A stretch of DNA of 64,000 nt. It comes from a virus. Numbering within the stretch: the first letter of the stretch is position 1; each line of letters starts with the position of its first letter. The position numbers and the translations under genes were made by a program. The notes beneath the pieces are model-generated. The model was given only the letters and a program-made list of their open reading frames with translations, had not been told where the DNA came from and searched no databases. Positions 1 to 48,372 of this stretch are shown in pieces. The stretch lies in the IMG/VR virus record IMGVR_UViG_3300021961_005592, positions 1-64,000 of that record. One strand, written 5' to 3'.

Positions 1-445
1 TGTTTGATATATCAAACACATCAGCTGCTGGTGTTTTGGGGAAATCTTTTATTGCATTAGCGTATGCCTTTACTGCTAGACTATTTGATTCAATTGCAGC
101 TTTATCTAGTTCAAGTAATTGAAAACTCTTTAACCCTGCCCAAGGACTTGTATCAACACCTATCAGTTTGGCCAGTCCCTGTTTGAATATATCAAATAAA
201 CTAGCTTCAGGTGTTGTGGGGAAATCTTTTATTGCATTAGCATATGCTTTTACTGCTAGACCATTTGATTCAATTGCAGCTTTATCTAGTTCAAGTAATT
301 GAAAACTCTTTAACCCTGCCCAAGGATCGGCATCAACACCCATCATCTTGGCCAGTCCCTGTTTGAATATATCAAACACATCAGGACCTGGCGTTTGAGG
401 GAAATCTTTTATTGCATCAGCATAAGCTTTAATTGCTTCGGCATT
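1..445 (-). repeat. 180-bp tandem repeat inside the tape-measure-like gene
   Basis: Positions 2-180, 181-360 and 361 to about 445 align as successive copies of a 180-base unit. The first two are close to identical over most of their length; the third matches only for its first 80 or so bases. The unit keeps frame, encoding a 60-residue block with the segment KDFP...FDIFKQGLAK...PWAGLKSF. The array probably continues outside the window, since it starts at the edge. In-frame repeats of this kind could change tail length by unit gain or loss if the protein is a tape measure. Confidence 0.85.
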
Positions 446-2650
446 TTGTTTTACTGCTGCTGTGTCGAATTTTTCGTTTGAAATTGCTCTTACTCTTTCA
501 AGTATTGTAGGACCTGGTAGCATTTCAAATAAATTTGCTATTGCATTACTAATTGCGCCGGCGGCTGCGCCTGCACCCATTTTAGCTATAGCACCAGCAA
601 CTCCTGCCATTCCTTCTGCGGCTTGACGTAACTTTGCTCCGTCTACATTTTCAAAGCTCTTCATGCCTTCTGAAAACTTAGGCAGAGCGGCACCCATTAA
701 CCAGGTAGCACCGGCGATTGCAGCACCAATTCCTATAATAGCACCGGCAAGAACAACAGCGCCGATTGCTACTTGAGGCGACGCAAATGCACTTAATCCG
801 GCTGCTGCACCACGCATCACGCCTGCGCCCATTTGACCTATAAAGTTGCCAATGCCTGAGCCTGCTGCTCCTCCAACTGCTCCAACTCCTCTACCACTAC
901 CGCCAATTCTGCCTCTTCTGCCGCCGCCAGCGCTGCCGCTCCCTAAAACACTACTAAACAGGGTTGCTATGCCTCCGGTAAATGCTTTAATAATAAGAGG
1001 TCCTGCAAATACTGCTGCTAATGTTCCTAAAACAGCTGGACTAGTTAATGCACTCTTAATTGCGTCTGCTAACCATGTTCCCATTTTATCAAGTGCGCCG
1101 TGTATAGCTTTACCAAGAACACCGTCCTCTGCAAACAGTTTCTTCATTACACCTTCAAAGCCAAGCTCTCTAAAATCTTTAATAATGCCATTTAGAGTTG
1201 TTTTTAAACTTTCAAGTTGTCGTTTAAACTCAGGACTGCCTATCCACTCTTGTAAATTGTTAGCTACATCTTCAAACGCAGCAGTTATAGCACCAAGTGG
1301 ACTGTTTTCGCCACCTGCTGTAAAAACATCCATTAAATTTCCACGAACTCGATTTAAAGTTTCTGAAAAGTTTTTAAGAGCTGGTTGTCTTGCTTGTTCC
1401 CTACGTTGTCTCTCTTGAAGTGCTGCATAGGCTTCCTCATCCAGGAATCGTTTGTCTGTAAGTTTACTGTATGCCATTAATGCGTCAGCCATTGGACCGC
1501 CAGCTCTAATTATAGCAGCAACACTAGTATTGTTCTTTTTAGCATATGCTTGTATATCTTGACCAACTTGAAATAGCATATTGTTTGCCATTCTAGGATC
1601 CATGTTTTTAAAGTCTTTAGCTTTTTCTCTAAAAGTAGCAGACATAGTCATTAGACCCTGTGTTATAGGTGATATTGCTTGACCTAGTGCTTGTTCGTTA
1701 AATGCTGCCTTCATTTCTTCTGGTACTGTTGCCATATTAGCTTGGAAACGTTTTTGTTGTTCCGCAGACATTCCTACCATTGCAGCCTGCATGGTAATAT
1801 TCCCAGCGTTTTGTTTTAGTTCGGCAGCTAACTGATCTCTATGCTTGCCTGTAATTGCAGAAAGCTCAGTTAATGTAGTTAGGTATTCTTTTGCTCCTTT
1901 TTCTGTAACTCGTCCTCTTCTTTGATCAAAGCTAAATTGCATTTGCATTAGCTCTGCGTAATCTATTAGCCCTTGATTTAATTCTTGTGATGTAAAGCCT
2001 AAAGCCATTAAATCTTTATTGTTTTTTCTCAAGTTCATTGACAATCTTGCAAAATTTTCTGCACCAGATGTTACATCTGATCCAAAATATCTTATTTGTT
2101 TAGAATTAGTTGCAATTAACTCAGTAAATTCGCCCAATGGCATTGCTGCTTGTGCAGATAAGTTTCTTAACCCGGTTAAACCTTCGCCAAAAATAGCACC
2201 CGATGCACTTAGTTTTCTAAACGATGATATATTTTCATCAATGAGTCCAGTAAGAACTGATAAAGGGCCGCCTACAATTGGTATTACTTTAGCAAAACTA
2301 GTTAAGTCGTTTTTTCCGTCAAGAAATTGTTTTGCTAGTTCGCCTGCTGTTCCTAATAAAGCACCTAATCCTTTTGCAGTTGCGTTGCCAACTAAATTTC
2401 CAAATCTAGATACTGCTTCTGTAGACTTGCTTACTGCTGAAGTGTTATCATTAACACCTTTTGTATGTTTAATTTCTGCAGATGTGCCTTGTTCAACTGC
2501 TTTATTATGTAATTCTTGTACTTTTGCAGCAGAGCCACTTCCGCTGCGGCCGCCCATTTTTTCTACAGCTCGTAAGAGAGCCTGAAGTGTTATTTCACTA
2601 GCAACACCGTCATTACCGCCTACATTACCAATAATTACTTCATCAGCCAC
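1..2650 (-). CDS. Probable tail tape-measure protein (partial, 3' end outside window)
   Basis: A single open frame runs leftward from a GTG at 2650-2648 to the window edge, about 880 codons, with no stop seen. The start is chosen because an AGG lies about 10 bases upstream and a minus-strand late promoter sits at 2709-2716; no ATG is nearer. The protein is helical and Ala/Gln/Lys-rich, then has a long Gly/Ala-rich hydrophobic stretch (roughly residues 530-660), then 60-residue tandem repeats. That architecture, and its place beside a gp26-like gene, suggests the tape measure that sets tail length and ends in the baseplate. It could instead be another large virion protein, since no family signature was recognised. 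One base is missing in the outermost repeat near position 7 (see findings). Confidence 0.6.
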   Translation of the reverse strand, partial: MADEVIIGNVGGNDGVASEITLQALLRAVEKMGGRSGSGSAAKVQELHNKAVEQGTSAEIKHTKGVNDNTSAVSKSTEAVSRFGNLVGNATAKGLGALLGTAGELAKQFLDGKNDLTSFAKVIPIVGGPLSVLTGLIDENISSFRKLSASGAIFGEGLTGLRNLSAQAAMPLGEFTELIATNSKQIRYFGSDVTSGAENFARLSMNLRKNNKDLMALGFTSQELNQGLIDYAELMQMQFSFDQRRGRVTEKGAKEYLTTLTELSAITGKHRDQLAAELKQNAGNITMQAAMVGMSAEQQKRFQANMATVPEEMKAAFNEQALGQAISPITQGLMTMSATFREKAKDFKNMDPRMANNMLFQVGQDIQAYAKKNNTSVAAIIRAGGPMADALMAYSKLTDKRFLDEEAYAALQERQRREQARQPALKNFSETLNRVRGNLMDVFTAGGENSPLGAITAAFEDVANNLQEWIGSPEFKRQLESLKTTLNGIIKDFRELGFEGVMKKLFAEDGVLGKAIHGALDKMGTWLADAIKSALTSPAVLGTLAAVFAGPLIIKAFTGGIATLFSSVLGSGSAGGGRRGRIGGSGRGVGAVGGAAGSGIGNFIGQMGAGVMRGAAAGLSAFASPQVAIGAVVLAGAIIGIGAAIAGATWLMGAALPKFSEGMKSFENVDGAKLRQAAEGMAGVAGAIAKMGAGAAAGAISNAIANLFEMLPGPTILERVRAISNEKFDTAAVKQNAEAIKAYADAIKDFPQTPGPDVFDIFKQGLAKMMGVDADPWAGLKSFQLLELDKAAIESNGLAVKAYANAIKDFPTTPEASLFDIFKQGLAKLIGVDTSPWAGLKSFQLLELDKAAIESNSLAVKAYANAIKDFPKTPAADVFDISN

Positions 2651-2676
2651 TTTGTTCAACCTAAATTATATGCGCA

Positions 2677-2727: not shown

Positions 2728-3612
2728 ATGGCAGAATTTAACCCTTTAACTAGTGGTCTTAACAAACCTCAAAGCAATCCTTTACAAAAATATTTTAGAC
2801 AACCAAAAGTTTATATTACGTTACCTAGTAAAGGTGAGTTTTATAAGTCGGGGTCGCTCGAATTGCCCGAAAATGGTGAACTGCCAGTTTTTCCAATGAC
2901 TGCTAGAGACGAATTAACAATGAAAACTCCAGATGCGTTGTTAAATGGACAGGCTACTGTTGATGTTATACAAAGTTGTATTCCGGCAATTAAAGATGCA
3001 TGGCAAATGCCTAGTATTGATTTAGATGCTGTACTAATAGCAATTAGAATTGCAACTTATGGCGAAAAAATGGATATATCTGCTATTGTCCCTGTAACTG
3101 ACGAAGAACGTTCTTATAGTGTTGATTGCAGGAACATTCTTAACAAATTAGTAACTGCTGAATTTGATAGTGAGCTTGCTTATAACAATATGCTTGTTAA
3201 AATACGTCCGTTAACTTATAAAGAGTTTACACAAAGCAGTATTAAAACTTTTGAAGAGCAACGTATATTTGCATTAGTTAATGATGACACTATGCCTGAA
3301 GAAGAAAAAATTAGTCGCTTTAGTCAAAGTTTTAAAAAACTAACACAACTAACTGTTGAAACAATGTCAAAAACTGTTGTTAGCATCACTGTTGACGATA
3401 ATGAAGTCACAAATACTGATCATATTCAAGAATTTGTTATGAATGCTCCAAAAGATTTCTTTGCTGCTATTATTGAACATATTGAAGCACAAAAAGATAA
3501 ATTTGCTCTAGAGCCAATAAAAGTAAGCAGCACTGATGAAGATATAGAAAAAGGTGCTCCAGAAACCTTTGAAGTTCCAATAACGTTTGATCAATCAAAT
3601 TTTTTCGCATAA
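2728..3612 (+). CDS. 26: gp26-like baseplate hub/assembly protein
   Basis: 294 residues, somewhat longer than T4 gp26 (about 208). The N-terminal third has the pattern seen in this family in marine T4-like phages: NPLQKYFRQPKVYITLPSKG, then LPVFPMTARDELTMKTPDAL and IQSCIPAIKDAW. The C-terminal part is acidic and rich in Glu, Asp and Lys. In T4 this protein is needed for baseplate hub assembly. It has its own late promoter and the ribosome-binding site CGGAGA. The gene ends in a run of T (AAATTTTTTC) just before its TAA, which looks like a -1 frameshift site into the next frame. The arrangement beside a tape-measure gene resembles the frameshifted tail-assembly chaperones of other tailed phages. 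The family call is from memory of motifs, so moderate. Confidence 0.7.
   Translation: MAEFNPLTSGLNKPQSNPLQKYFRQPKVYITLPSKGEFYKSGSLELPENGELPVFPMTARDELTMKTPDALLNGQATVDVIQSCIPAIKDAWQMPSIDLDAVLIAIRIATYGEKMDISAIVPVTDEERSYSVDCRNILNKLVTAEFDSELAYNNMLVKIRPLTYKEFTQSSIKTFEEQRIFALVNDDTMPEEEKISRFSQSFKKLTQLTVETMSKTVVSITVDDNEVTNTDHIQEFVMNAPKDFFAAIIEHIEAQKDKFALEPIKVSSTDEDIEKGAPETFEVPITFDQSNFFA
3597..3606 (+). promoter_or_regulatory. Candidate -1 ribosomal frameshift site
   Basis: In the zero frame the codons are TCA AAT TTT TTC GCA TAA. This holds two overlapping heptamers of the X XXY YYZ form: A AAT TTT and T TTT TTC. The -1 frame is closed upstream by TGA at 3588-3590, and the zero frame is closed by TAA at 3610-3612, so the site lies in the 20-base window where a slip joins the two frames. 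Reading continues CGC ATA AGG ATC and straight into the next frame without a stop. The join would give a product of about 369 residues. Confidence 0.6.
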
Positions 3613-3617
3613 GGATC

Positions 3618-3836
3618 TTGACCTGGACCCTTGACGAGATCCTAGATGAGGTCCGCAATTTTGAAAACCAACAAAAAGAAATAAAACTAGAACTTCTTAA
3701 GGTATGTTGGTACATGCGTGGTGGTGTATCCTACGAAGAAGCCATGTTCATGTCTTATGAAGATAGAGAAATTGTAGGAAGAATAATAAAAGAAAACCTA
3801 ACTACAACAAAAGAGTCAGGTCTTCCTTTCTTTTAA
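3618..3836 (+). CDS. gp51-like small frame, probably the frameshift extension of gp26
   Basis: The 72-codon frame opens only with a TTG (3618); AAGGA sits just two bases before it, too close for a normal ribosome-binding site, and the first ATG is codon 29. It contains MRGGVSYEEAMFMSYEDREI and ends LPFF, a small conserved pattern that I associate with the gene after gp26 in marine T4-like phages. In T4 the gene after 26 is 51, a hub-assembly protein. I favour expression mainly as a C-terminal extension of gp26 by -1 frameshifting at 3597-3606. Independent translation from TTG is the alternative. Its TAA overlaps the stop of the convergent gene at 3833. Confidence 0.6.
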   Translation: MTWTLDEILDEVRNFENQQKEIKLELLKVCWYMRGGVSYEEAMFMSYEDREIVGRIIKENLTTTKESGLPFF

Positions 3837-5259: not shown

Positions 5260-5700
5260 TTATGTGTTGGATTGTTTTGCCTGTTCTAGTAGTGCCTGTC
5301 GCAATTTATCTGAGCCGCCAACTCTACAATTAATAATTCCGTTATAATATTCGTCGCTCTCTAATACACGGCGGTCAAATTGCTCTCTTGCCTCTATGTA
5401 GGACATTTCTGCCTTTGATGTACAATAATAAAGTATTTGTCTTGTGAAGTTTTCTGGACCTAAGGCTGCAACATCTGCTTGTAGGCGTTCTGAAGAACCC
5501 CAATACTCGCGCCAGTCGCTTTCTACAGTGGATCGTCTTTTGAGTTTTTTGCCTTTTAATGGTGGTTTAGTACGTTTGAACTGTGCTAGTTTCTTGCCTA
5601 TGTACTTTTGTCCAGTAGTTAGATTTGTTATAAGGTAAACAAAGCCTATTTTGCCTTCAGGTATTTCATCTACTATAACATTACGGTAAGTCCACTGCAT
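5260..5700 (-). CDS. GIY-YIG-like (SegE-type) endonuclease
   Basis: 146 residues. Near residues 19-37 lies GFVYLITNLTTGQKYIGKK, which fits the GIY-YIG nuclease pattern (VYLI in place of GIY, KYIGKK for YIG). A basic patch follows (LKGKKLKRRS), then a Glu-containing segment near SYIEAREQ that could supply the metal-binding acid. Proteins of this type are common in T4-like phages as free-standing homing endonucleases, but some are conserved single-copy genes of unknown use. It is the last gene of the gp55-47-46 minus-strand run, with 8 bases between it and the next gene. The hairpin-rich stretch just downstream may be linked to its mobility. The nuclease call is from the motif only. Confidence 0.6.
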   Translation of the reverse strand: MQWTYRNVIVDEIPEGKIGFVYLITNLTTGQKYIGKKLAQFKRTKPPLKGKKLKRRSTVESDWREYWGSSERLQADVAALGPENFTRQILYYCTSKAEMSYIEAREQFDRRVLESDEYYNGIINCRVGGSDKLRQALLEQAKQSNT

Positions 5701-5931: not shown

Positions 5932-7707
5932 TTACTCTACATAGTCGATATCATTCGCGTAGCTAGTAAAACCATTTTCTTTGATTACTTTTAGAACATT
6001 GTTTACACGACCAATTAATTCGTCTTTGTGACTAATCAAATAAATGTTTTTGTTTCTTTCTCTACCCATCTTTTTAAGAATACTTAGAGAGTTTTCAACA
6101 CCTGCGGTGTCCATGCCGCTATCAAAAAGCTCGTCAATAAACAATAGGTTAACATTTTGATATAGACTTTCCCAAACATCACGGAATGCAAAAGAAAGAC
6201 CAAGGATAAGCCTGTTGCGTTCTCCTCGAGATAGATTGTCAAAATCTAGATCTTGACCTAACTGTGTAATTTCTACATTCAAGTCGTTTAAAAATACAAC
6301 TTGGTGAGGTAAGCCTAGTTTATCGAGATAATAAGTAAGCCTGTTGTTTAGATATGCTAAGTTTTGATCAATAATCTTCTTTCTAATGAAACTATCTTTG
6401 TTGGTTAACAATTTAAGTAAGAATTCTTGATGTTCTTTAACTGAATTTAAATTGTTAATTTTAGACCAGTCAATTTCTTGAATAGCAGACTTATGCAATT
6501 CGTCAATCTGTGCTTGATAAGGATCAGATTCTGCCTGTTTATCAGCTAGGCTTTTCTTTAAACTTTCAACATTATTTCGATGTTCGTATGCTTCTTTTGC
6601 AGTATCATAAAATGTTATCGGTTTACCGTTAATGTCGCCTATTTCGGTAATACCTTTAAGCACTTCTTCTAATTTATTTGACACTTCAAACTGATAAGTG
6701 TCAGCATCTTTTAACTCTAACAGTTTAGCTGACATTATTTCTTGTTTTTTATCAGCATGTAACGGTTGTCCGCAAGTATAACACAATGCTTCTTCTAAGT
6801 TTGTTATATCTGACTGTATTTTCTTAACACGTTTATCAGCTTGCAACAAGGCACTTTCTAGTGTGCTCTTTTCTTTATTGAATCCGTTAATTTTGTTGTT
6901 TAACTCAGTCCAAACAGCAAGTTTCTCGTGTAATTCTAACTCCTTGTCAATGTCTAGGTGCTCTAATTCAGTAATACCACGCTGTAATTTAGCACAGTCT
7001 TGCTCTTTTTTAGCATACCATGCTTTTTGAGTAGTTCCAAGACTATTGATAGTAGTTTCAATTTTAGAATTAGCAGATTGAATTGCATTAATTTTTAATG
7101 TTTCTTCTGTTATGGTATCTTTTGTTATTTTTACCTGTTCTTTTAGCATTTCTGCCTTTTCACTAAGGATAGTAATGCCTAATAGTTGTTCAATAATTTC
7201 TCGTTGATCATTTGTACGCATACTAAGAAACGGTTCTGTGTACGTGTTTAATGCCACAACATGTTTAAACATGTTGTGACTCATTCCTAGCAGCTCAATA
7301 ATAGTTTTCTGAGTTTCTCTACTATCACCTTGAGACTCATCAGTTAACTCTTGCTCTTCCTCGTTAATATAGAACTTCAACACGTTAGGACTTCGACCTC
7401 GTTCAATTCGGTAGCCAACACCGTCTCGCTCAAAGTGCAATGTTACTAACATTCCCTTATTATTTGTCTTGTTAATAAGGTTGTTCTTTTTGATATTGGT
7501 TAGTGCTTGGCCGTACAGTGCATAACTTAATGCATTGATTATAGTAGTTTTGCCTGTACCGTTACGAGATCCGGTGTCGTCACCTCCTTGGTCTAAGTTT
7601 TCGCCAAGCACTAGTGTTAGCTGCTCCTTATTAAAGTTAACAGCTTGGGTCTGGTTACCCACACTCATAAAGTTTTTTACAGTTAGATCTTTAATTTTTA
7701 TAGTCAT
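5932..7707 (-). CDS. 46: gp46 recombination nuclease subunit (SbcC/Rad50-like ATPase)
   Basis: 591 residues, close to T4 gp46 (about 560). Walker A is GSRNGTGKTT (Lys53); the central part is long coiled coil broken near residue 310 by CYTC, the zinc-hook CxxC; then come the ABC signature LSRGERNRL and Walker B LLFIDELFDSGMD near the C-terminus. With gp47 it forms the Mre11/Rad50-type complex that resects DNA ends for recombination-dependent replication and helps host DNA breakdown. The ATG overlaps the gp47 stop in TAATG, so the two are translationally coupled. An insertion of acidic residues (LDQGGDDT) lies just before the P-loop. All catalytic motifs are present. Confidence 0.95.
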   Translation of the reverse strand: MTIKIKDLTVKNFMSVGNQTQAVNFNKEQLTLVLGENLDQGGDDTGSRNGTGKTTIINALSYALYGQALTNIKKNNLINKTNNKGMLVTLHFERDGVGYRIERGRSPNVLKFYINEEEQELTDESQGDSRETQKTIIELLGMSHNMFKHVVALNTYTEPFLSMRTNDQREIIEQLLGITILSEKAEMLKEQVKITKDTITEETLKINAIQSANSKIETTINSLGTTQKAWYAKKEQDCAKLQRGITELEHLDIDKELELHEKLAVWTELNNKINGFNKEKSTLESALLQADKRVKKIQSDITNLEEALCYTCGQPLHADKKQEIMSAKLLELKDADTYQFEVSNKLEEVLKGITEIGDINGKPITFYDTAKEAYEHRNNVESLKKSLADKQAESDPYQAQIDELHKSAIQEIDWSKINNLNSVKEHQEFLLKLLTNKDSFIRKKIIDQNLAYLNNRLTYYLDKLGLPHQVVFLNDLNVEITQLGQDLDFDNLSRGERNRLILGLSFAFRDVWESLYQNVNLLFIDELFDSGMDTAGVENSLSILKKMGRERNKNIYLISHKDELIGRVNNVLKVIKENGFTSYANDIDYVE

Positions 7708-8717
7708 TACAATCCGTGATATATGTCTAGTAGTAACTTTTTGTCAAAGTTATCAGTGTCTAGTTGCGAAATTTCATTTGCAACAATTTCGTCTACGCTT
7801 TCAAATGCAGAAATGTCTAGGTCTGTGCTTATTTCTTCGATTTGTTTTTGTGGTATTAGTGTAATTTCTCTACAATCATACTGACTTATAAAAGTTTCTT
7901 TGATAAAACTTGCTTCTTCGTAACTGATTGGAATGTCAATTGTTACTCGAAGATACATTTTTGATTTTAACAAAGACTCTGTTTCGTTTAATAATCTAGA
8001 TAACGGTAATGAACGATATTTAGGACAGTTATCCCAATTAATGTATTCTGGCTCTTTGTTATCTTCTTTGTTAATAACCATCATGCCACGTTCGTCGTCC
8101 CACACATCGGCATAGTTATGTGGGAAAGCATTGCCGATGTAATGTATTTTACCTTGTTTTTGTCTTTTATGAAAGTGCCCACTAAACACATAGTCTTGGT
8201 TTTCAAAATGAGATGCTTGTAAATCACCATGATCTGGCATTTGTACCATTGCATTCATGTAAAAATGCGGAAGTTCAAAATGACCAAACATATATTTGGC
8301 TTTGATATTTTTTATATTTTTCCATTCGTCACCAACTAACCACGGAACGAGTGCAACATTGTCTTGTTCATAGATTCTGTCAACTAAAGTAATTCCTGGA
8401 ATGTGTTTTCCAAAAATAGTTGAAGACACATCACGTTTATCTTTGTAGTAAAGATCGTGATTTCCAACAAACATATAAAACTTATCAAATGCTTTACCAA
8501 GTTTTTCTAAGCTACGTATTGTTGCATCCATTGTGGTAAGGTTAAGACTGTTGCGATTATGATGCCAGTCACCACAAAAAATGCCAGTTTCGCAACCATG
8601 AGATTTTGCAGTTTCGATAAACCAATCTACAAATTCTTCACAGTCATCATTATGAACCTTGCTGTTGCCTTTTAGTCCAAAGTGGATATCTGTAAATACC
8701 GCCGCCTTTTTAAACAA
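7707..8717 (-). CDS. 47: gp47 recombination nuclease subunit (SbcD/Mre11-like)
   Basis: 336 residues, the usual length. Metallophosphoesterase motifs in order: DIH (Asp10, His12), GDWHHNR (Asp50), GNHD (86-88 region), and further His motifs GHFE and SGHFHKRQ. These bind the two metal ions of the nuclease. It pairs with gp46. The start is TTG at 8717, chosen because GGAG sits nine bases upstream and the N-terminus FKKAAVFTDIHFG begins the family's first strand. It has its own promoter (8743-8771) in the short gap after gp55, with TTGACA and TATATT 17 bases apart, so it should be made early by host polymerase. Confidence 0.95.
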   Translation of the reverse strand: MFKKAAVFTDIHFGLKGNSKVHNDDCEEFVDWFIETAKSHGCETGIFCGDWHHNRNSLNLTTMDATIRSLEKLGKAFDKFYMFVGNHDLYYKDKRDVSSTIFGKHIPGITLVDRIYEQDNVALVPWLVGDEWKNIKNIKAKYMFGHFELPHFYMNAMVQMPDHGDLQASHFENQDYVFSGHFHKRQKQGKIHYIGNAFPHNYADVWDDERGMMVINKEDNKEPEYINWDNCPKYRSLPLSRLLNETESLLKSKMYLRVTIDIPISYEEASFIKETFISQYDCREITLIPQKQIEEISTDLDISAFESVDEIVANEISQLDTDNFDKKLLLDIYHGL

Positions 8718-10954: not shown

Positions 10955-13900
10955 ATGGCATTTTCAATAGGAGGACTAACATCAGCTGTTCCATCAATTG
11001 GTAGTACAGTTCAAACTATTTCTAATAGTATTAATACTGCTAATCCTGCAGGCATATCGTCAGCCTTGTCAGCAGCTAACTCCGCATTGTCTGGAAATAC
11101 CAGCAGTTTGTCAACTGCAAACTTAACTGCTGGGGTAAACAATTTAGGTAGTCTTGCCAACAACTTATTAGGACCAGCAAACTCCATTACAAAATCTTTA
11201 GGACAAGTTTCTGGAACACTTGGAGTAATTAGTAAATTAACAGGAGCATTAGGAGGGACAACTAACCCCCTTCAAAGTCTACTTAGTAACGCATTAACAG
11301 GAACAGGACTTGAAGGACTATCAAAATCTATAGAGCAATTAACCTCAGTTGGTGCAGCAGTAGCCGGCGCTGTGTCTGTTCTTAATCCAGATACTTCAAC
11401 AACAAGAACACTACAAGAATTAGCAACATCTAGCGATAGATCTTATCTAGAATCATTTAAACCTTTACTAACTTCTATTGGAAGTTCTACATCATTTAAA
11501 GCAACTGACTTTACTACAAACAATGGCAGAGTAGTAAATCCGTTAAGAAACGCAAACAGTTTTAACTATGTTATTACATTAGGAATTGTTGATGCTGCAA
11601 CAGTTGCTAATCCTACCGGAATTTATAACGGACAAGAATTCAAACAGGTACTCCTAAAAAGCGGTGGCGGCTCTGTTGATTCAGGATATTCTAACAGAAT
11701 ACGAACAAGTCACGAAGGCCAAGAAAATGCAGAATATTACCTTGAAGATTTTGAATTATCAGCAGTAGTAGCACCTAACCCAAGTACAGGAACAACATTA
11801 GGAACAACTATTACTTTTAAAATTATTGAACCTTTTAGTCTCGGCAAAGTTATAGAAGCTATGATGGTTGGAGCAAAAGCAGCTGGTTTTAACTCTTATA
11901 CCAACGCTCCGTTTTGTTGGAAAATTGAGTTTTTAGGATGGGATGAAAGAGGTGAAAGACGAATAGTACTTGATAAGCCAAAATATGTGTTAACGCTAAT
12001 ATCTGAAATGAATATGAGCTACTCTGAAAAAGGCACAGTATATGATTGTAAAGGAGTTGCATGGTCTGACGGAGCATTATCTAACACGGCCAATAAAATT
12101 AAAGTACCAGTTACTGCCTTTGGTAAAAAGGTTCATGAAGTACTCGAAAACAGTGCAAAGTCTGTAACAAACGTAGTTAATGGACATATCGAAAAACTTG
12201 AAGAAAAGAAATTTATAGTTGGGTATGACAGATATATAATTTGTTTTCCAAAAACTAAAACAGCAATACATAAAGCAGTACAAGGACAAGGTGTTGATGT
12301 TTCTCAACTAAGAGCAACTACTGATGCGGCGGAACAGGAAAGAATACGACTGGGCTTGTATCAAAAACCAAAAATAGATGATCCAGATACTAACAATCAA
12401 GCAATTAGAATTATCCCTTCAACATCGCCTAATCAATATTTGTTTTTAAAAGCTTGGGCTACTGACACTGCAAACATAAATGAATGGGGAATGAGCGACA
12501 TTATTGATGACACTAGAGACGGCGGAAACGTACAAAACCCACCTGCAGGAGCATCTCAAGATAGCGGTACACGAGTTATAAGACGACAAATGAATGCATC
12601 TCGAACACCTGAAAAGGCTAGAAAAGCTGATTGGAACGAAGGAACTACAATAACGGCTATCATTGATCAAGTTCTTAAAACATCAGTACTGGCTAAAGAA
12701 CAAGCAACAGCCGAATCTAGAAATGGATTTAAAAAAGCATGGCGAATTGAAACACTGGTTTTTATTGAAAATGGTGGTACAGGAGTTGAAGGTCAACTTG
12801 GTCGTCCAAGAAAAACTTATGTTTATGCAGTGCATACTTTTTGGACCCACGAAGCAAGACACCTTGGTCCTGGACAAAAACCTAAAGGAATAGAACAGTT
12901 AAAAAAACTAGCTAAAAAAGAATACAATTATTATTATACTGGTAAAAACGAAGATATTATTAAATTAGACCTAAAATTTAATAACTCTTTTTTCCAAAAC
13001 ATGAGAGCAGACATTGGCCAAAACTCATCCACTACAACCGGACAGGAAGTTACATCTACAGGAAAAACACAAGGTTCTCAGCTATCTAATGCCGGATCAG
13101 ATGGATTGGAGGACTTCGAAGAGCCAAAACAGGCAATGGAACTAAGTGCTGACGACAAACAAGCATCTAAAGGTGGCTTTCAAGTTTCAACTGTAAATGA
13201 TAAGACAAAGGTTGCTATTTTTGAACAATTCTACAATAGATTAATAAACAGTCCTGCAGACATGGTTCAGGTAGAGTTTGACATATGGGGTGATCCGTAT
13301 TTTATACCTGGGGAGACAGCACAACGAGGGCAAGAACCAGCAGCCCCAGGAGTATATGCTGATGGCTCAATGGCGTATGTAACAGATGAAGTTTATTGTG
13401 TAATAAATTTTAAAACTCCGTTAGATTATTTTGTTCTTGGATCTAGAATGGATATTCCAAAAAATATTCCAGCATTTACTGGACTATATCAGATAATTGG
13501 TGTTGTTAACAAATTTAGTCAAGGAAAATTTATTCAAAGTATAAAAGCAGTCAGACTGGCCAACCAGGGGGGTGAAAATAAGTTTGAATCATCTTCGGGT
13601 TCAGTTACAGGATCAGGAGCAATACAAGCAGGTTATTCTGTAGCAAATGCTGGACCAGCAGCAAATGCTAATCCTAACCCACAAAGTTCTCCTGCGCTGC
13701 CAGCATCTATTGGACAGAATGTAGTAAGTACAATCACTAATAAAATTAATACAAATAATCTAACAGGTCTTGCTTCTAGTTTCTCACAAGAACGAATAAT
13801 GACAGGTACTGCTGGTGTAGGCACACAAGCAGTTATTAATAGTACAATTTCAACTATTACTGGAGCATTAACTAGCAAAGACGCACAAGCTGCACTTGCG

Positions 13901-14266
13901 TCATTAAGTAGTATTACGCGATTAGGCGTTGCAGCAAATGCGTCAAAAACTATATTCCCAATGCAGTTACCTAATCCAATTATGGGAACGGCTGGCGCAC
14001 AAGGTGTTATTAGTTCTGTTGGTATAGCAGCAAATCTTCTTTCAAAAGGTTTGAATGGCCCTGCAGGCTCGTCTCTTGCAGGTTTGGGTAATATTGTATC
14101 AGGCCTAGCATCAGGAAATTTACCTGCAACACTTAATCAAGTAGCTAGCAAACTCGGTAGTACAGTTAATCCAGCAGCATCAGGGGTAAGTAGTCAAGCA
14201 AGGCCTGAATCTGCAAGGCCGCCGGTAGGAGCAGATGCATTTGGTTCAAATTTCTCAGCGTTTTAA
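10955..14266 (+). CDS. Large baseplate hub protein (gp27-like core with extensions)
   Basis: 1103 residues. Residues 1-150 and about 890-1103 are low-complexity Ser/Ala/Gly/Asn-rich, like the start of the upstream tube-cap protein. The middle is folded: one domain begins near VVNPLRNANSFNYVITLGIV and continues through KVIEAMMVGAKAAGF and APFCWKIEFLGWD; a second, near residues 760-870, has GDPYFIPGE and FTGLYQIIGVVNKFSQGKF, a pattern typical of hub proteins that link tube and spike (T4 gp27, gpD-like). Its place between gp53 and the spike genes supports a hub role. It is nearly three times T4 gp27, so either domains were added or it is another structural protein. No enzymatic motif seen. Confidence 0.5.
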   Translation: MAFSIGGLTSAVPSIGSTVQTISNSINTANPAGISSALSAANSALSGNTSSLSTANLTAGVNNLGSLANNLLGPANSITKSLGQVSGTLGVISKLTGALGGTTNPLQSLLSNALTGTGLEGLSKSIEQLTSVGAAVAGAVSVLNPDTSTTRTLQELATSSDRSYLESFKPLLTSIGSSTSFKATDFTTNNGRVVNPLRNANSFNYVITLGIVDAATVANPTGIYNGQEFKQVLLKSGGGSVDSGYSNRIRTSHEGQENAEYYLEDFELSAVVAPNPSTGTTLGTTITFKIIEPFSLGKVIEAMMVGAKAAGFNSYTNAPFCWKIEFLGWDERGERRIVLDKPKYVLTLISEMNMSYSEKGTVYDCKGVAWSDGALSNTANKIKVPVTAFGKKVHEVLENSAKSVTNVVNGHIEKLEEKKFIVGYDRYIICFPKTKTAIHKAVQGQGVDVSQLRATTDAAEQERIRLGLYQKPKIDDPDTNNQAIRIIPSTSPNQYLFLKAWATDTANINEWGMSDIIDDTRDGGNVQNPPAGASQDSGTRVIRRQMNASRTPEKARKADWNEGTTITAIIDQVLKTSVLAKEQATAESRNGFKKAWRIETLVFIENGGTGVEGQLGRPRKTYVYAVHTFWTHEARHLGPGQKPKGIEQLKKLAKKEYNYYYTGKNEDIIKLDLKFNNSFFQNMRADIGQNSSTTTGQEVTSTGKTQGSQLSNAGSDGLEDFEEPKQAMELSADDKQASKGGFQVSTVNDKTKVAIFEQFYNRLINSPADMVQVEFDIWGDPYFIPGETAQRGQEPAAPGVYADGSMAYVTDEVYCVINFKTPLDYFVLGSRMDIPKNIPAFTGLYQIIGVVNKFSQGKFIQSIKAVRLANQGGENKFESSSGSVTGSGAIQAGYSVANAGPAANANPNPQSSPALPASIGQNVVSTITNKINTNNLTGLASSFSQERIMTGTAGVGTQAVINSTISTITGALTSKDAQAALASLSSITRLGVAANASKTIFPMQLPNPIMGTAGAQGVISSVGIAANLLSKGLNGPAGSSLAGLGNIVSGLASGNLPATLNQVASKLGSTVNPAASGVSSQARPESARPPVGADAFGSNFSAF

Positions 14267-46687: not shown

Positions 46688-47534
46688 AGGCGTAATTGTT
46701 TTTGCTCGCAATAACGGTCAGCTTGATTACGTTAAGCAGGCAGTGTTTTTTGCTAAACGAGTAAAAGAATATCTAGGATTACCGGTATCTATAATTACAG
46801 ACAGTACTGACTATCTAGTATCTAGTTTTGACTTTAGTTTATTTGATAAAATAATTACAGTTGACTACCAAGAAACACGTAATAATAGAGCATACTTTGA
46901 CGGATCTTTATATCATAAAACAGCCCCATTCAAAAACGATATGCGTGACGGAGTATACGATATGTCTCCATATGACGAAACGTTGCTAATGGATGTTGAC
47001 TATATTGTATCTAACAACACTCTATTAAAATGTTTTGACTCTCAGCACAATTTAATGTTGTACAAAGAGTCAAGCGATATTTCAGATTGGCGTGACGCTA
47101 GAGAATTTAATTATATAAGCGATTATACTGTTGACTTTTATTGGGCTACAGTAGTATTTTTTAGAAAAACTCCTGAAAATGAAGTGTTTTTTAGCCTAGT
47201 TAAACATATTAAAGAAAATTGGCATCATTATAGACGAGTTTACCAAATTAAATCAGGATTGTTTAGAAATGATTTTGCATTTAGCATTGCTGTTCATATC
47301 ATGAATGGCTTTAACAAAGGTACATTTGTTGCTCCTTTACCAGGCAAGCATTATTATTCATCTGACAGGGATGTCTTACAAAATATTGACGGAGATAAAA
47401 TAGTTTTGTTAGTAGAAAAAAAAGACTATCTCGGAGAATACACACTAATAAAAGCCAATAAACAGAATATCCATATTATGAACAAATTTAGTCTAGAGCG
47501 TATAATTGACAAGTTAGGAGCAAGCAATGGATAA
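46671..47534 (+). CDS. GT-A glycosyltransferase-like protein (paralogue 1)
   Basis: 287 residues. The N-terminus GVIVFARNNGQLDYVKQAVF with a later LLMDVDYIVSNN (Asp108, Asp110) fits a GT-A fold with a DxD motif that binds a nucleotide-sugar through a metal ion. The next gene has the same plan. In many marine phages such proteins are annotated as glycosyltransferases, sometimes GT8-like; donor and acceptor are unknown. It is cytoplasmic by sequence. Overlaps on both sides (17 and 8 bases) show it belongs to one operon. The DxD region is the only clear catalytic sign, so the exact reaction is open. Confidence 0.6.
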   Translation: MTKQTKGVIVFARNNGQLDYVKQAVFFAKRVKEYLGLPVSIITDSTDYLVSSFDFSLFDKIITVDYQETRNNRAYFDGSLYHKTAPFKNDMRDGVYDMSPYDETLLMDVDYIVSNNTLLKCFDSQHNLMLYKESSDISDWRDAREFNYISDYTVDFYWATVVFFRKTPENEVFFSLVKHIKENWHHYRRVYQIKSGLFRNDFAFSIAVHIMNGFNKGTFVAPLPGKHYYSSDRDVLQNIDGDKIVLLVEKKDYLGEYTLIKANKQNIHIMNKFSLERIIDKLGASNG

Positions 47535-48372
47535 AACTAGAGGTGTAGTAGTACTTGCTCAAAACACCGATGAACATGATTATGTTCTACAAGCCTGTTT
47601 GCTAGCAATGAGTCTAAAAGTTACAAATCCAACTACGCTTATAAGCGTTGTAACAAATAACACAGTTAACGAAGAATACATAAATTTGTTTGACCAAATT
47701 ATTCCAATACCGTTTGAAGATGATGCAGCTGATAGCAATTGGAAAATTGAAAATAGATGGAAAATCTATTATGCAAGCCCGTATGATCAAACCTTAGTTC
47801 TTGATACAGATATGCTAGTGCTACAAGATATATCTAGTTGGTGGAAATTCCTATCAAATTATGAATTATTTTTCACTAGTAAAGTTTTTACCTATAGAAA
47901 CGAAGAGATATCTAGCGATTATTATCGAAAGACATTTACAGCAAACAACTTGCCTAACTTATACAGTGGTCTTCATTACTTTGAAAAGAGTAAATTTGCA
48001 ATTGAATTTTACAAATGGCTAGAACTAGTAATGCAAAACTGGCAATTGTTTTACGGATCTTATGCAAAGGAATTTTATCCTAAACGTCCTAGTATTGACG
48101 TGAGCGCAGCAATTGTAGCTAAACTTTTAGACTGCGATGCTAAGATTACTAACAAGATTAGTAGTTTTCCAACATTTACTCATATGAAACCATATGTTCA
48201 AAATTGGTCTGAACCTAGGAACCGATGGCAAGATTGCGTTGGTACTTACATAACTAGAGATTGTAAAATCAAAATAGGAAACTACGAGCAGCTTGGAATA
48301 TTACATTATACGGAAAACGATTTTGTAACACCTGAAATAATTGAACGTTATAGGAATTATTTAAATGTCTAA
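47527..48372 (+). CDS. GT-A glycosyltransferase-like protein (paralogue 2)
   Basis: 281 residues, same layout as the upstream gene: GVVVLAQNTDEHDYVLQACL at the start and LVLDTDMLVLQDISSWW with Asp93 and Asp95 as the DxD pair. The middle has LYSGLHYFEKSKFAIEFY and the end THMKPYVQNW with a His late in the chain (ILHYTEND), which in GT8-type enzymes helps hold the metal. This copy keeps more of the family signals than paralogue 1. Likely tandem duplication followed by divergence, so the two may add different sugars in sequence. Overlaps its neighbours by 8 bases each. Confidence 0.68.
   Translation: MDKTRGVVVLAQNTDEHDYVLQACLLAMSLKVTNPTTLISVVTNNTVNEEYINLFDQIIPIPFEDDAADSNWKIENRWKIYYASPYDQTLVLDTDMLVLQDISSWWKFLSNYELFFTSKVFTYRNEEISSDYYRKTFTANNLPNLYSGLHYFEKSKFAIEFYKWLELVMQNWQLFYGSYAKEFYPKRPSIDVSAAIVAKLLDCDAKITNKISSFPTFTHMKPYVQNWSEPRNRWQDCVGTYITRDCKIKIGNYEQLGILHYTENDFVTPEIIERYRNYLNV

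Follow-up and report, generated by a model that had tools for sequence, protein, structure and literature searches.

A very probable -1 programmed ribosomal frameshift at a conserved poly-T site in the T4-type tail assembly chaperone gene of an uncultured marine phage

Two overlapping reading frames and their predicted products

The window (the whole 64,000-nucleotide stretch of viral DNA analysed here) contains an open reading frame, TAC-N, whose 3' end overlaps a second frame on the same strand in the -1 register (Table 1). The zero frame terminates as TCA AAT TTT TTC GCA TAA; the -1 frame is closed by a TGA at 3588-3590 and is then open from 3591 to a TAA at 3834-3836. The original prediction had described two slippery heptamers in the overlap of these frames, and the coordinates and register of both were confirmed. 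Since both are in register for a -1 move, a slip on either would give the identical fusion, TAC-NC, with a predicted length of 369 aa, a junction of SNFF-RIRIL and the sequence ...DQSNFF-RIRILTWTLDEIL... across it. The second frame had also been said to lack a proper start codon, in agreement with our finding that the earliest ATG, GTG or TTG past the slippery site in the -1 frame is the TTG at 3618.

Table 1. Positions of the chaperone frames, the recoding signals and the divergent neighbour in the window
Feature	Position	Strand	Remarks
Partial long ORF, divergent; probably the tape-measure gene	2..2659	-	Runs off the window; assigned from synteny and the RaK2 annotation
TAC-N, gp26-like ORF, 294 aa	2728..3612	+	PF12322/phrog_150; ATG 2728, stop TAA 3610-3612
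Slippery site AAATTTTTTC	3597..3606	+	A AAT TTT 3597-3603 overlapping T TTT TTC 3600-3606
TAC-C, gp51-like extension, -1 frame	3606..3836	+	76 codons after the slip; kept from FFR onward in relatives
Probable stimulatory hairpin	3612..3643	+	AGGATCTTG 3612-3620 paired with CGAGATCCT 3635-3643; 5-nt spacer GCATA past the heptamer

The first ORF matched PF12322 with 38.4 bits, against a curated cut-off of 24.5 (E=1.4e-9), and phrog_150 (E=6e-13), which bears out its description as gp26-like. AlphaFold2 models of TAC-N and TAC-C were confident, with pLDDT values of 92 and 91, the latter model being all helical. In a structure search the TAC-N model had matches at E 3e-22 among predicted T4-like baseplate hub assembly proteins, and a fold search of the PDB found no solved relative. 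Weaker matches to the same model were seen among uncharacterised proteins of ~450-690 aa from the large phages Erwinia Special G and phiEaH2, Ralstonia RSF1 and RP12, and Klebsiella Eowyn, and the modelled similarity raises the possibility that these large-phage proteins are distant chaperones.

Assignment of the extension was less direct. The fold search with TAC-C gave no significant match, named tail or tape-measure chaperones appearing among the matches at E of at least 7, and a profile of the -1 product from the window, set directly against T4 gp51, yielded nothing usable. The TAC-N profile was also weak against single T4 sequences, and it is PF12322 that links the two. The -1 products of cyanophages and phiM12 matched phrog_634, 'baseplate hub assembly catalyst', and aligned to the C-terminus of T4 gp51. 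The window TAC-C and its cyanophage counterparts agree in position, in the FFR start and in an MS/MP..ER-like motif, and hhalign gave their similarity a probability of 19%, which is a weak link. The proposed gp51 likeness is supported for the counterparts in cyanophages and phiM12; the window's own connection to the cyanophages is weak by sequence. TAC-C appears to match the gp51 C-terminus by way of the cyanophage extensions, with a weak final link.

A long minus-strand frame lies beside the chaperone gene in 68 of 70 relatives, and the RaK2 gene at the corresponding place is annotated as similar to tail tape measure protein. The neighbour at 2..2659 had no match in PHROGs, in Pfam or, by tblastn, in phages, and it resembled the 121Q neighbour only marginally (E 0.023). 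The earlier suggestion of a tape-measure-like gene on the opposite strand stands as to the divergent arrangement, but its identity was not confirmed by PHROGs, Pfam or tblastn; going only by synteny and the RaK2 annotation, it is probably the tape-measure gene. Elsewhere in the window, a SegE-type GIY-YIG endonuclease (PF19835, E 7e-34) is encoded on the minus strand at 5263-5700, near gp46/gp47-like recombination genes at 5935-8717. Taken together, the PF12322 and gp51-like parts, the match of the TAC-N model and the divergent neighbour make a tail assembly chaperone with a short and a long form the best reading of the locus.

Conservation of the slippery site and selection in the -1 frame

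Of the 48 window ORFs that reach 100 aa, 3 have a heptamer of this kind within the final ten codons, so its occurrence in a single genome is weak evidence. Two other window ORFs, 47527-48369 and 10955-14263 (+), have TTTAAAT and AAATTTC heptamers there, probably by chance. Relatives of the PF12322 ORF with ~29-35% identity were found in Atu_ph07, Phosso, PA5oct, 121Q, CBB and others, and all six that were first examined had TTTTTTC at the ORF end with a -1 ORF across it. The sample was drawn from five viral-contig scans and named phages and comprised 255 readable junctions, which fall into 98 clusters below 70% identity and 27 clusters below 50% identity.

T TTT TTY was present in the zero-frame register at the ORF end of 251 of the 255 junctions (TTTTTTC in 249), and TTTTTTCG was present at 242. 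The codon preceding TTT TTC always ends in T, eight different codons being used. Codon usage predicts the motif at ~0.1 per locus, and these ORFs contain 44 further Phe-Phe pairs, none of which has T TTT TTC. Conservation of the site across relatives exceeds chance by far; the product of chance over clusters, ~10^-27, is only indicative because clusters were treated as independent and two TTTTTTT loci were counted as TTTTTTC. The remaining four junctions (L216, L223, L226 and L244) read AAATTTTTC, with one T fewer and hence a run of five. A AAT TTT is their sole in-register heptamer, and it leads to the same -1 product, which keeps KFF. The zero frame of these four loci ends in NFS*, and their slippery site is a naturally occurring variant.

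Two other explanations of the motif can be weighed against these data. The invariance of FF in the protein alignment would suit a heptamer kept solely by a need of the protein for Phe-Phe, but TTT TTC after a T-ending codon is fixed against codon usage and is found at none of the 44 control pairs. Since, in addition, the four exceptions read Asn-Phe-Ser in the zero frame and retain Phe-Phe only in the -1 frame, we regard this need as refuted as the sole cause and give it practically no weight. Slippage of the transcribing polymerase on the T run, rather than of the ribosome, could also make the fusion, and the conserved run of six T would suit it. Six T is short for polymerase slippage, and the four relatives with only five T nevertheless keep an in-register ribosomal heptamer; these points, together with a hairpin placed 5 nt downstream in the manner of ribosomal signals, render transcriptional slippage very unlikely.

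The -1 frame was open at every junction, with no intervening stop in any relative, and begins with a conserved Phe-Phe-Arg that lies upstream of any start codon. Its third codon is CGN (Arg) in 242 of 251 loci, with all four third bases in use, and the zero-frame codon at the same position is variable (Ala, Gly, Val, Glu and others). Among marine relatives, differences are enriched at third positions of the -1 reading, beginning with the earliest codons after the slip. A strong ATG start for the second gene was sought and rarely seen: ATG with an SD-like sequence occurred within the first 20 codons of the -1 frame in 4 of 94 representatives, and ATG, GTG or TTG was among the first five in 19 of the 94. 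Comparison of the relatives shows that the -1 frame is under selection from the slip codon onward, without a start of its own.

These observations bear on whether the second ORF is instead translated on its own with no frameshift, either through re-initiation coupled to the first ORF or from a weak start such as TTG 3618. In some relatives an ATG does overlap the stop codon (ATGA, TAATG), and annotators have called separate genes in 121Q, P-SSM2 and KVP40. Against separate initiation stand the scarcity of early starts, the Arg codon conserved upstream of any start, and the position of the window's TTG within the stem of the probable hairpin. The zero-frame stop, moreover, lies mostly one codon past the heptamer, but four codons past it in 34 of 251 loci and 11 codons past it in 10; this drift is consistent with frameshifting rather than with overlapping stop and start codons. 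We therefore consider a separately initiated protein improbable. The relatives thus keep a slippery run, leave the -1 frame uninterrupted and in general offer no strong ATG for the second gene, and the original reading of the locus as a -1 programmed frameshift is supported.

The downstream hairpin and the predicted mechanism

The window hairpin has a predicted folding energy of -12.6 kcal/mol, with a z-score of only -1.1 for the single sequence, which is modest. Using 50-nt windows, z-scores in the marine clade were -1.2 and -1.9 at 0 and +4 nt past the heptamer. The signal was -5.1 in cyanophages, and in both groups it peaked only at 0-4 nt past the site; elsewhere along the gene z was ~0, and outside the marine and cyanophage groups the average signal was weak (about -0.5 to -0.9). 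When registers were scanned in 69 marine-clade sequences, at least 7 of the 8 outer pairs could form in 64% in the register of the window hairpin, as against 0-1% in other registers. Changes in the stem fall on both sides, at third codon positions, and include compensatory ones; the pairs observed numbered 510 compared with 478 +/- 5.5 in column shuffles, which ignore relatedness. RNAalifold gave no consensus structure for the whole marine set, and an Rfam search at the site found no family. A hairpin a few nucleotides downstream of the heptamer is supported by comparison in the window's clade, and its predicted role is stimulatory.

In P-SSM2 and S-PM2 (cyanophage loci such as L098 and L099) a GGAGG-like sequence precedes the slippery site by ~10 nt. 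In cyanophages it is possibly a second stimulator, of the Shine-Dalgarno type; it is absent upstream of the window's slippery site.

We conclude that a -1 programmed ribosomal frameshift at AAATTTTTTC very probably produces a T4-type tail assembly chaperone in a short and a long form. In the predicted scheme, the majority of ribosomes would stop at the TAA at 3610 and release TAC-N. A minority would be held up by the hairpin, 5 nt past the heptamer, move back by one base on either U UUU UUC or A AAU UUU, and read on to 3836 to yield TAC-NC. Frameshifting itself and its efficiency are what we infer from sequence comparison. By analogy with lambda G and GT, the short and long forms may then cover the tape measure protein while the tail is being assembled.

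Named phages, T4 and comparison with known systems

PF12322 occurs as a single copy in the window's record and in eight of ten named phages searched, and as two copies in T4 and Campylobacter CP81. P-SSM2, S-PM2, phiM12, phiW-14, HTVC008M, Aeh1, KVP40 and RaK2 have a T-run site followed by a -1 extension; the site is T TTT TTT in phiM12 and HTVC008M and T TTT TTC in the other six. In T4, the domain spans residues 1-206 of gp26 and 1-201 of gp51, which keeps a 48-residue C-terminal extension, and gp26 ends GAG TTC TTT GAG, the slippery site having been lost. The two PF12322 genes of CP81 (L107 and L109) are adjacent and the second carries a C-terminal extension, so that CP81 represents a second lineage, like T4, in which the short and long chaperones have separate genes. 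We somewhat favour the view that U UUU UUC before an Arg codon is ancestral and nearly unchanged in the T4-type chaperones of cyanophages, KVP40/Aeh1-like phages, RaK2-like jumbo phages and marine phages, and that T4 and CP81 escaped from frameshifting independently, their gene pairs being the derived state. The site bears on the origin of T4 genes 26 and 51 as a separate pair.

The annotation of KVP40 had already noted the similarity of the extension to the T4 gp51 C-terminus. In the existing annotations the extension is a separate small gene in 121Q, P-SSM2 and KVP40, is truncated in Atu_ph07 and is missing in RaK2 and PA5oct. The long form of the chaperone is thus routinely split or lost by annotators, and the occurrence of TTTTTTCG where a PF12322 ORF ends is a simple signature for finding it.

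Phage lambda G/GT and P2 E/E' each comprise a short protein and a longer one, made by -1 frameshifting and carrying a small C-terminal domain, encoded near the tape measure gene. The layout of two forms predicted for the window is alike, but the heptamer is different, no sequence homology was shown, and the window's tape-measure-like gene is divergent, on the opposite strand. Among T4-like phages, frameshifting is reportedly conserved in several groups, T4 itself being said to use genes 26 and 51. These two genes belong to the same Pfam family as the window TAC-N and supply two forms from two genes without a frameshift; their products are hub assembly chaperones (PMC3004832). The TAC of Pakpunavirus Adele, from another phage group, has a -1 frameshift at the site GTTTTT (PMC12846349), T-rich like that of the window.

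Frameshifted chaperones were correctly taken to be known from other tailed phages: Vladimirov, Gautam and Davidson (2022, Virology 566:9-15) are cited in PMC12846349 for poly-T signals of -1 frameshifting in the TAC-N genes of T4-like phages, and in PMC10885494 for T4-like phages in which one gene is short and another is longer and fused. As far as these citing papers describe them, such chaperones have the PF12322 TAC-N and the poly-T -1 signal in common with the window gene. The phage of the window is a member of an uncultured marine group, with Atu_ph07, RaK2 and PA5oct as relatives of that group, and its TAC-N is larger, 294 aa compared with 208 in T4 gp26. As poly-T sites in T4-like chaperones have already been reported, the window gene adds a case to a known class. 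At the level of sequence comparison, the present analysis contributes the breadth over which one site is conserved, a hairpin confined to one register in marine-clade phages, four exceptional loci with A AAT TTT, and the mis-annotation of the gene in jumbo phages.
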